Positions 1,067 through 34,953 of a stretch of DNA of 64,000 nt are shown piece by piece (positions within the stretch are counted from its first letter, which is position 1; every line of letters begins with the position of its first letter). The translations under genes and the position numbers were made by a program. Source of the stretch: Luteimonas sp. (GTDB taxonomy: Bacteria > Pseudomonadota > Gammaproteobacteria > Xanthomonadales > Xanthomonadaceae); contig JANPZU010000003.1 in assembly GCA_024707405.1 (NCBI GenBank), positions 62,001 through 126,000 on the forward strand, read 5' to 3'. The notes under the pieces are model-generated. The model was not told where the DNA came from and did not search any database. It saw only the letters and a program-made list of their open reading frames with translations.

Positions 1067-1152
1067 CTCGCCGATCCCGGCGCGCACCCGTTCGTCGTCC
1101 ATCACGACGCGTGCGTCCCGGCGCGACAACGCCCCCTTCCCGGATGCCCGCC

Positions 1153-4041
<2,889 letters not shown>

Positions 4042-6059: not shown

Positions 6060-7201
6060 GCCGTCAGCACCACCGCACTGGTCGCGGGCCAACTCAGCCA
6101 CAACGTGCCGTCCCAGTCGTAATGCGGCTCCGAGCTGCGTTCGACGTGGGTTTCCTGCACCTGCAGGGTCGCGCCGGTCTCGGTCTGCACGTGGTAGATC
6201 GACACGTCGCCGAGGTAGGCGATGTCGCGTACCTTGCCGACCGCGACGTTATCCGCTTGTGGCCGCTCCTCGTGCACGTCGATCTTCTCGGGGCGGATCG
6301 CCACGCTCACCGTGGTGCCTTCGGGCACGAAGTCGGTATGTCGCGCCAGGATCGGCTCGGGCAGCGTGTCGCATTGCACGCGCACCAGCCCCAGCTCGAG
6401 ATCCTGCGACAACACGCGACCTTCCAGCAGGTTGATGCCGCCGATGAACTCGGCCACGAAACGCGTCGCCGGGAATTCGTACAGTGCCGCCGGCGTGGAC
6501 ACCTGCACGATGCGTCCGGCATCCATCACCGCGATGCGCGAGGACATCGTCATCGCCTCTTCCTGGTCATGCGTGACCATGATGAAGGTGGTGCCCACCT
6601 TCTCCTGGATGTTGACCAGCTCGAATTGCGTGCGTTCGCGGAGACGCTTGTCCAGCGCGCCCAGCGGTTCGTCCAGCAGCAGCAACTTGGGCTGCTTGGC
6701 CAGCGCACGCGCCAAGGCCACGCGCTGCCGCTGGCCACCGGACAACTGGTCGGGCTTGCGGTTGCCCAGTTGCGCCATCTGCACCAGTTCCAGCATCTGC
6801 TGCACGCGATCCTTGATCTCGTCCGCCGACAGCTTGTCCTGCTTCAGTCCGAAGGCGATGTTCTGCGCCACGGTCATGTGCGGGAACAACGCGTAGCTCT
6901 GGAACATCATGTTGACCGGCCGCTGGTACGGCGGCAGGTCGGTCACGTCCACGCCGTCGATCAGCACCCGGCCCTTGTCCGGCGTCTCGAACCCGGCCAG
7001 CACGCGCAGCAGCGTGCTCTTGCCGGAACCGGAACCACCGAGCAGCGCGAAGAACTCGCCGCGGTAGATGTCCAGCGAAATGTCGTCGCAGGCATAGAAC
7101 TTGCCGAAGGTCTTGGTGACGCCCTCGATGCGCACGAACGGCTGCGCATTCGCGTCGCGCCACGGTTCGATCGGTGGCGTCGCCCGTGCTGGTGCGGCCA
7201 T
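6056..7201 (-). CDS. potG: Polyamine ABC transporter ATP-binding protein
   Basis: This 381-residue ATPase drives the polyamine importer. It carries Walker [11 protein letters not shown]-loop [14 protein letters not shown], signature [15 protein letters not shown], Walker [14 protein letters not shown] and the switch histidine in MVTHDQEEA. The C-terminal third (from about residue 280) is a TOBE-type regulatory domain, as in PotA/PotG. It starts 18 bases after the potF stop. The N-terminus has about 25 residues before the first strand of the nucleotide-binding domain, slightly longer than PotA. Confidence 0.95.
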
Positions 7202-10079: not shown

Positions 10080-10439
10080 GCGAAATCTCGAATTCAACGC
10101 AACCAATTGTTTTTTATCGATTTATGGTCAGACTTCTTGGCGTGATCCTGCTGAACAGAGCGAAGCCTCGCCCTGTCTCACTCGCGAAGTTCCAACCTTT
10201 CCCGCCGGCACATCGTCGCGCCCGCTTGCGAGCAGGACGTACTGCGTGCACGTGGCGAAAACGCCACGGTGGGCGACACCGACGCATTCAAGCCTTGCAT
10301 GGGCCGGCCGGATCCCGATGCGATCCACGGCTGCAGCTGACGAGCCTACGCAACTCGACGAAGGGAACCTGACGCCGCATACGCTGCACTCCGCACCGGG
10401 CACCAACAGTGCTGGCATGGCGACACAGTGGCAATCGCC
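10080..10439. other. Non-coding gap of about 360 bases
   Basis: Between the SdpR-type operon (divergent) and the end of the thioredoxin pseudogene I see no convincing gene. The first 50 bases are AT-rich (a TTTTTTATCGATTTAT tract around 10109-10124). The rest has short open frames on both strands (for example 10124-10372 plus and 10128-10418 minus) that are Arg/Ala-rich or Cys/Val-rich without recognisable motifs or ribosome sites. It may be decayed coding DNA; nothing is identifiable by eye. Confidence 0.5.
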
Positions 10440-10766
10440 TCAGCTGGCGAGCGCGAACTGCAGCGGCGCCAGATCTGATCTCGAGCGGGGCCGCACGACG
10501 CGCATCACCTCGTCACCATCGCGCAGCAATACCAGCGTCGGCCACAGTTTGACGGTGAACGAGCGACCGAGCGGCTTTCCACGCCCGTCCTCGATCTTGA
10601 AATGCGTCACGTCATCATGTTCCGCAAGCAACGCCTGCAACGCCGGCTGCGCGCCGATGCAGTGCGGGCACCACGATGCGCCAAACTCCAGCAACAACAA
10701 GCCTGATCGCGCGTCAACCTCGACGCGATCGGGCTACTGTGTGGCATATGCGTCCTGGTAACTCAT
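10440..10766 (-). pseudogene. Thioredoxin-like gene interrupted by an in-frame TAG at codon 11
   Basis: The frame from ATG 10766 reads MSYQDAYATQ, then TAG (10736-10734), then PDRVEVDARSG and LLLLEFGASWCPHCIGAQPA, a thioredoxin fold with CPHC active site, ending at 10440. The ATG overlaps the stop of the upstream host-attachment gene (ATGA, 10763-10766), the coupling arrangement used throughout this window, so 10766 is surely the original start. After the TAG the only possible starts are TTG codons at 10700 and just after, giving 86 residues that still contain CPHC and the cis-Pro (LWPTLVLL). Either the gene is recently dead, it restarts at TTG, or TAG is read through. A single-base sequencing error is also possible; Glu (GAG) would need only one change. 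Confidence 0.75.
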
Positions 10767-11164
10767 GCCGCCTGCAGTGCGCGCTCGATGTCTCCCAGCG
10801 GCGCGTTGGTCAAGGTCTTGTTGACCTCACCCAACAGGCGCTGCTGGGCTTCCTTGTGCAGCAAGGGGCGCACGCGGCCCAAGGTGGTCGGATCCGCCAC
10901 CAGCACCAGGTGCGCGTACATCTGTTTGAGCGCAGCCTTGTTCAAGGCATCGGCCAACTGCTTGGCGAACGTGGCTTCGTCGAGCTGCTGGCCCGTGGAT
11001 TCACTGGGCATGCTGCCAGCCGGGCCGTCATCGTTCATGTTGACCAGTTCGAGCAGCGCGTACTGGTGCAACGACAGTGCCTTCTCGTCACCGCGATTGC
11101 GGAACACGCGCGCGCCGCCACCATCGGCCACCACCACCATTGCATCCGTCGGAATCCTGTTCAT
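10763..11164 (-). CDS. Host-attachment protein (PF10116, release-factor-like fold)
   Basis: The product is 133 residues and belongs to the 'protein required for attachment to host cells' family, seen from the N-terminal MVVVADGGGARVFRNRG and the C-terminal HLVLVADPTTLGRVRPLLHK. The family is placed with the ribosomal L18p/S11 and archaeal-eukaryotic release-factor central domain fold, related to the baeRF proteins. The attachment role comes from Agrobacterium and is not established in general; a ribosome-associated role is plausible. Its stop overlaps the start of the thioredoxin-like gene, forming a two-gene operon. No membrane segment or signal peptide is seen. Confidence 0.85.
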   Translation of the reverse strand: MNRIPTDAMVVVADGGGARVFRNRGDEKALSLHQYALLELVNMNDDGPAGSMPSESTGQQLDEATFAKQLADALNKAALKQMYAHLVLVADPTTLGRVRPLLHKEAQQRLLGEVNKTLTNAPLGDIERALQAA

Positions 11165-34140: not shown

Positions 34141-34242
34141 GTGGCGAAGGCTGCGTGCGGAAACGCGACATTGTCGCAGACACGGCCGCCAGCCCCGCGG
34201 GCGACGCTAAGATGTGGCATCGCAACGGATGCGGAGGCCGCC

Positions 34243-34953
34243 ATGACGCCACGATTGCTGCTGGTCGAGGACGATCCTGCCAGTCGCGCCTTCCTCGCCG
34301 CGGCCAGCGAAAGCCTGCCCGCGACCGTGGATGTCGCCGACTCCATCGCCTCGGCCATCGCGCTGGCCACGCAGCACCGGCACGCGCTGTGGATGATCGA
34401 TGCCAACCTGCCCGACGGCACCGGCGCGGACTTGCTCGACGCCCTGCGCAACAGCGGCCTCGATACCCCCGCCCTCGCCCACACGGCCGCCTGCGAGCAA
34501 CGGGAACTCGATGCCCTGCTCGCTGCAGGCTTTGCCGCCGCCGTCAGCAAACCGCTCCCGGCCGAATCCTGGCGCGACGCATTGCGATCCATGCTCGCGC
34601 GGCAGGCACCCCATGTCGCCGAAATCGCCGCCGAGCCTTCCGGCTCGGTTGAATCCCCGCTCTGGGACGATGGGGCCGCACTGGCCGCCATGAACGGCAA
34701 CCGCACGCATGTCGATGCGCTGCGTGGATTGTTCCGCGCGGAGTTGTCGACGATCCAGGCGACGATGCACGCCGCCTTCGCAGGAGGCGACACCGACGCA
34801 ATGCTGTCCACGCTGCACAAGCTCCGCGCGAGTTGCGGTTTCGTCGGTGCGAAACGGCTGGACGCGGCCGCATCGCGGCTGCGCGCATCGACCGGATCGG
34901 AAGACGCGCGGCGCGACTTCCTGGCGACGCTTCAAGACACGCTGTCGTCCTGA
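34243..34953 (+). CDS. Response regulator with a C-terminal HPt domain
   Basis: The 236-residue product joins a receiver domain to a histidine phosphotransfer domain. The receiver has the acid pair Asp10-Asp11, phosphoacceptor Asp53 (MIDANLPDG), Thr81 and Lys103 (VSKPLP). After a linker, the HPt helix reads [16 protein letters not shown] with the phosphorylated His192. There is no DNA-binding domain, so it should relay phosphate inside a hybrid-kinase phosphorelay; no kinase is encoded nearby. The ATG at 34243 has GGAGG 7 bases upstream, a strong ribosome site. The 3' end overlaps the convergent recO by 22 bases. Confidence 0.9.

Follow-up and report, generated by a model that had tools for sequence, protein, structure and literature searches.

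We report a thioredoxin-like gene of Luteimonas sp. whose reading frame is broken by a TAG at codon 11. Our sequence comparisons indicate that it very probably suffered a recent loss-of-function nonsense mutation and is an ordinary nonsense pseudogene of a dispensable accessory gene. The initial annotation of the locus had taken recent nonsense mutation as the simplest reading, and the evidence agrees with it: codon 11 encodes an amino acid in all 40 other genus orthologues, the nearest of which has GAG, and the gene is otherwise intact. The window, by which we mean the whole stretch of 64,000 nucleotides that was analysed, would hold one more recently broken accessory gene, and the release-factor fold of the protein encoded next door need not be invoked.

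Layout and identity of the interrupted gene

The gene lies on the minus strand at 10440..10766, begins with ATG, ends with TGA and comprises 108 codons, the TAG included, plus the stop. Its extent had been given as 10434-10770; the gene itself was correctly seen, but the low end was placed 6 bases too low. Translated from the ATG at 10766, the frame reads MSYQDAYATQ-TAG-PDRVEVDARSG-LLLLEFGASWCPHC..., in which ten codons precede the TAG (10734..10736 on the minus strand, read 10736-10734) and 97 sense codons follow it down to the TGA at 10442-10440. The start codon (10766-10764) shares the letters ATGA with the TGA (10765-10763) of the upstream gene. The sequence and its translation bear out this overlap, the TAG at codon 11 and the CPHC downstream, all of which had been described before. 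The claim that codon 11 alone interrupts the gene held as well: no second disabling change was seen besides this TAG, and the remainder is intact when set against the orthologues.

The part beyond the TAG matches Pfam Thioredoxin (PF00085) at 2.4e-11, with 44 bits against a curated cut-off of 23.5, and the CxxC redox motif is present as CPHC. The gene scores 35.6 bits against the TrxA equivalog TIGR01068, for which the cut-off is 96.8. Judged by these profile scores it is thioredoxin-like and is not filed as the housekeeping thioredoxin. When the TAG was read as Glu, with 18 distant relatives in the alignment, the predicted structure had a mean pLDDT of 91.3 and the elements H E H E H E E H. 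Elsewhere in the window, a glycine riboswitch aptamer was found at 949-1068 on the plus strand (54.3 bits), just 5' of a 965-residue gene at 1144-4041 that is probably gcvP, to judge from its length and place.

Codon 11 in the orthologues

We searched 52 genomes of the genus and found the orthologue in 41, the window's counted. All 41 were compared at a fixed offset from the core of the domain, and 26 distant orthologues were treated likewise. The initial annotation had proposed this alignment as a check, and it returned a sense codon at position 11 in all 40 other genus orthologues and in every one of the 26 distant orthologues; TAG was seen only in the window's copy (1/41). Among the 40, the residue is Ala in 20, Glu in 13, Thr in 6 and Gly in 1, encoded by GCG (11), GAG (8), GCA (7), GAA (5), ACG (4), GCC (2), ACC (2) and GGC (1). 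An in-frame stop where orthologues carry a sense codon, here in 40/40, is one mark of a nonsense pseudogene.

The segment before the TAG had been assigned to the N-terminus of the gene, and the orthologues support this. In all 40 of the genus, 32 or more codons are open 5' of the position that corresponds to TTG 10700 in the window; ATG or GTG stands at the exact place of the window's ATG in 30 of them, and the remaining 10 have a start at most 7 codons away. The open upstream frame and the matching starts indicate that the segment is real coding sequence. In the maximum-likelihood tree, the window gene pairs with the copy of genome G002, whose codon 11 is GAG (support 81/88), within a 12-member clade; of its 11 other members, nine carry Glu, as GAG or GAA, and two carry Ala, as GCA. 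Since codon 11 is sense in the relatives and GAG in the sister, the TAG was derived on the window's own branch, and one substitution from GAG would explain it.

State of the remaining gene

Conservation was assessed over the first 100 alignment columns in 37 relatives, three with a one-residue insertion being left out. The window gene keeps all of the 25 columns that are conserved at 95% or more, and the stop therefore looks recent. Over columns 23-100 it has 5 residues seen in none of the 37; the same count for each relative, when that relative was taken out of the set, ranges from 0 to 7. Its end branch in the maximum-likelihood tree (0.25) is shorter than that of the sister (0.42), and no acceleration was seen. 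Pairwise omega, estimated by maximum likelihood against nine clade members, ranged from 0.008 to 0.081, and every pair rejected omega = 1 (likelihood ratio 51-92). Saturation at synonymous sites put t at its bound in five of the nine pairs, and omega < 1 holds for the whole path and not for the window branch alone. The long path separating the window gene from the clade members has been under purifying selection. The gene is not an old ruin: either the event is recent or the gene is still in use.

Loss and interruption across the family

No orthologue was found in 11 of the 52 genus genomes, where only weak matches to other thioredoxins occur; 7 of these 11 genomes are at least 99% complete. 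Over the family, 247 genomes were searched and 102 have the gene, of which at least five, in five genera, carry an interrupted copy. The true number may be higher, since sequence was read for 28 of the 102 copies and the others were judged by search flags, and a distant match in G253 gave no clear reading. The 28 comprise 10 of the genus, four copies that were flagged, short or split (G251, G282, G063 and G074) and 14 others, which were intact. Besides the window's copy with TAG at codon 11, the interruptions are a TGA at the first catalytic Cys in G251, which could be selenocysteine, frame changes at or after LWP in G282 and G063, and a mid-gene frame change in G074. The gene is accessory, as the absences in the genus and the repeated interruption in the family indicate; it has been lost or interrupted repeatedly within the family, though it is often paired with a baeRF gene.

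The copy in G251, which belongs to another genus, is an observation in its own right. This thioredoxin gene (L157, G251:C1:2176500-2177700) reads W-TGA-GHC, and the close relative G208 has TGC there. G251 encodes SelB (413.5 bits, over its cut-off), and just downstream of SelB lies a tRNA-Sec match of 65.9 bits; ordinary tRNAs also exceed the tRNA-Sec RNA cut-off, at about 50 bits, and G208 has a similar tRNA-Sec match. No SECIS family of Rfam was matched, and no such element was recognised in the folds. Over the 60 bases past the TGA, the two genomes differ at two positions only. Selenocysteine at this TGA is possible, and a nonsense mutation is as likely.

Proposed course of events and alternatives

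We propose that the thioredoxin gene was, in an ancestor, the second gene of a closely coupled baeRF/Host_attach-thioredoxin pair, with Glu at codon 11, most likely as GAG. A single substitution would have converted this Glu codon to TAG, presumably directly from GAG. Ribosomes starting at ATG 10766 would then terminate after a peptide of 10 residues, and thioredoxin would be made in very small amounts or not at all. We infer that the change is real and no artefact of the assembly; the stop was seen once, in the one genome of the species.

The main rival is a sequencing or assembly error, the organism itself having a sense codon at position 11. We consider this unlikely. The species is represented by a single genome with a completeness of 92.86%, and an error would leave the rest of the gene just as intact as was found. 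Against this, the assembly has 8 contigs and a contamination value of 0.18, and the 60 open frames predicted by a simple gene call fill the window. This total takes no account of individual gene lengths, includes the TTG frame within the thioredoxin gene and misses at least one open frame (34.2-34.95 kb). The one long gap in the call, 34141-34931, falls inside an open frame missed by the caller. A search for breaks in the window against the corresponding regions of relatives gave few matched stretches, with antisense frames included, and carries little weight. Furthermore, the interrupted copies in other genera of the family make real loss of this gene plausible in itself.

Alternatively, the TAG may be tolerated, with basal readthrough or reinitiation supplying a little thioredoxin. 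The window would then hold a low-expression allele, whose dose falls before the final loss, and the interruptions in the other genera would be parallel steps of one process. The same conservation downstream of the stop would be expected of a gene still in low-level use. We regard this course as very unlikely.

Readthrough of the TAG at a useful level, giving a small and perhaps regulated amount of full-length thioredoxin, we hold to be highly unlikely. A C as the base after a stop codon makes a weak termination context, and C follows this TAG. The gene beyond the TAG is conserved, and in-frame stops with dN/dS < 1 are described as widespread in bacteria in the available passages of PMC7918605, where readthrough or regulation is proposed for them. 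However, the stop occurs in one species only (0/40 genus relatives), and the machinery for reading it was not seen. RF1 is present in the genome, over its cut-off; for PylS, the PylS_Cterm match in the genome is below cut-off; and ARAGORN named no CTA anticodon (CUA tRNA) over loci covering 39 tRNA-family places. The tRNA set so obtained is short of some expected anticodons (e.g. ACG and GCT), and the genome is 92.86% complete, so that a suppressor tRNA may have been missed. By a simple codon model, the 60 predicted genes of the window end in TGA (53), TAG (6) or TAA (1). TAG looks like an ordinary stop in the window, because 6 of 60 genes end in it. Programmed readthrough would call for a stop conserved in orthologues, of which 1/41 has the TAG, and for a dedicated UAG decoder, of which this 92.86% complete genome yielded none. 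If the TAG were read through all the same, the gene would offer a simple native test of UAG leakiness.

Recoding of UAG was also considered as a candidate and was rejected, neither PylS nor a CUA tRNA having been found and RF1 not being missing.

A separate observation concerns the tRNA genes of the same genome. Two short tRNA-like genes, Tyr(GTA) and Trp(CCA), of 72 and 71 nt, abut each other on the minus strand at 6626-6767 of locus L158 (G000:C6:638625-638766). As folded, the short Tyr(GTA) has an anticodon stem of 4 bp, and it is without a long variable arm; further Tyr and Trp tRNAs, these of the usual length, are present in the genome. The available passages of a paper on tRNAs with 4-bp anticodon stems (PMC13092985) deal mainly with UGA read by tRNA-Trp and with C-wobble tRNAs, and do not cover tRNA-Tyr.

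Translation could also restart at TTG 10700, or at one of the next two TTGs, and yield a functional protein of 86 residues. We find this most improbable. The frame from TTG 10700 (10440..10700, minus strand) is open for 86 amino acids and contains CPHC; the ATGA-coupled start just 5' makes reinitiation conceivable; and 8 of the 40 genus relatives have a possible start codon at the TTG position (GTG in 7, ATG in 1), each with a further start upstream. On the other side, the residue at this position is variable, and TTG itself stands there in 0/40 genus orthologues and in 1 of 26 distant ones (L050). The initial annotation had named orthologues that begin at the downstream TTG, with no conserved region before it, as the outcome that would speak against its reading; all 40 genus and 26 distant orthologues have a possible start upstream instead. 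Even the shortest N-termini, those of the distant orthologues L043 and L051, where a stop closes the frame 17 and 23 codons upstream, include an ATG that precedes the TTG position by 14 or 13 codons and so lies before the helix. In the predicted fold, the first helix covers residues 14-19 and the first core strand residues 23-29; a protein starting at residue 23 would begin at that strand and lose the helix. Finally, there is no in-frame ATG, GTG or TTG between the TAG and TTG 10700.

The baeRF/Host_attach neighbour and the gene pair

The upstream gene (10763..11164, minus strand), whose TGA shares bases with the thioredoxin ATG, encodes 133 amino acids. It had been assigned to the host-attachment family with a release-factor fold, and this assignment was confirmed: the protein matches baeRF_family12 (PF18856) at 3.8e-31, with 108.9 bits against a cut-off of 27.7, and Host_attach (PF10116) at 1.4e-24. 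Only single-domain families were matched over its 133 residues. A class-1 release factor would have a stop-recognition domain and an invariant catalytic Gln; this protein has 133 residues, and Gln occurs in the candidate catalytic-like loop, matched by eye, in 23 of 30 aligned genus members. Most baeRF families are without the conserved Gln, which suggests inactive hydrolases, and non-catalytic roles have been proposed, as far as the available part of the source goes (Burroughs and Aravind, PMC6514570). A word search of the available main text of the same paper did not return "thioredoxin", and our narrow literature searches found no description of a Host_attach/thioredoxin pair.

Both genes are present in 38 of the 52 genus genomes and neither in 9; thioredoxin occurs alone in 3 and baeRF alone in 2 (Fisher p 2.9e-6 for co-occurrence, a value that ignores relatedness). 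The pair is adjacent on one strand in 36/52, with baeRF first in 25 and thioredoxin first in 11, and in 2 genomes the two lie about 9.5 kb apart on opposite strands. A family sample added 92 further genomes with the thioredoxin gene: baeRF is directly upstream (within 700 bases) in 29, on a different contig in 10 and further apart in 8, and in 45 no baeRF was matched at 1e-8. Two rows were dropped before the pairs were counted, a second match to baeRF in G230 and the second piece of G074. With a genus baeRF profile, which recovered all of its 30 source sequences, no baeRF was found in flanks of up to 3 kb around the 26 distant orthologues.

The speculation that the release-factor-fold neighbour acts on the stop, by programmed readthrough or autoregulation by the pair, merits next to no credence: the pair is conserved (adjacent in 36/52 genus and 29/92 further family genomes), but among the adjacent pairs in the genus the window's alone has the stop and the other 35 are without it, the protein is a single domain of 133 residues with the candidate-loop Gln in 23/30 in a group most of whose families are without it (available part of PMC6514570), and interrupted thioredoxin copies, over the genus and the further family genomes together, are about as frequent beside baeRF (3/65) as elsewhere (2/68). 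A link between pair and stop was rejected, the pair being common and the stop found in one pair only.

The baeRF gene itself can be broken. At locus L180 (G283:C78:8200-9500), an in-frame TAA and, further on, a frame change break it, and the adjoining thioredoxin gene is intact. This was the one interrupted baeRF copy among 81 seen; the other stop flags fell in matches extending as far as residue 132, the expected natural end of the protein.

Comparison with known systems

Three known systems resemble parts of this locus. The upstream neighbour matches baeRF_family12/Host_attach (PF18856, PF10116) over nearly its whole length; the likeness belongs to the neighbour, and the stop is left unexplained by the family. 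For the thioredoxin-like protein, the best solved relative is PDB 2LRC ("Probable thioredoxin"): an intact orthologue-like query is aligned ungapped over its residues 5-97 with residues 3-95 of the chain (3.5e-31), and the alignment takes in the N-terminal segment. Unlike the window gene, 2LRC is intact, and it has CGHC where the window has CPHC. The closest parallel to the interruption is given by the nonsense pseudogenes of PMC7918605, the available passages of which describe in-frame stops as widespread in bacterial genomes and as tending to be short-lived. The window's stop differs from those treated there in being known from one genome only, where polymorphism and fixation look the same. 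It resembles them in being a single stop that can be reached by one substitution, in a gene otherwise conserved, and in its narrow distribution.
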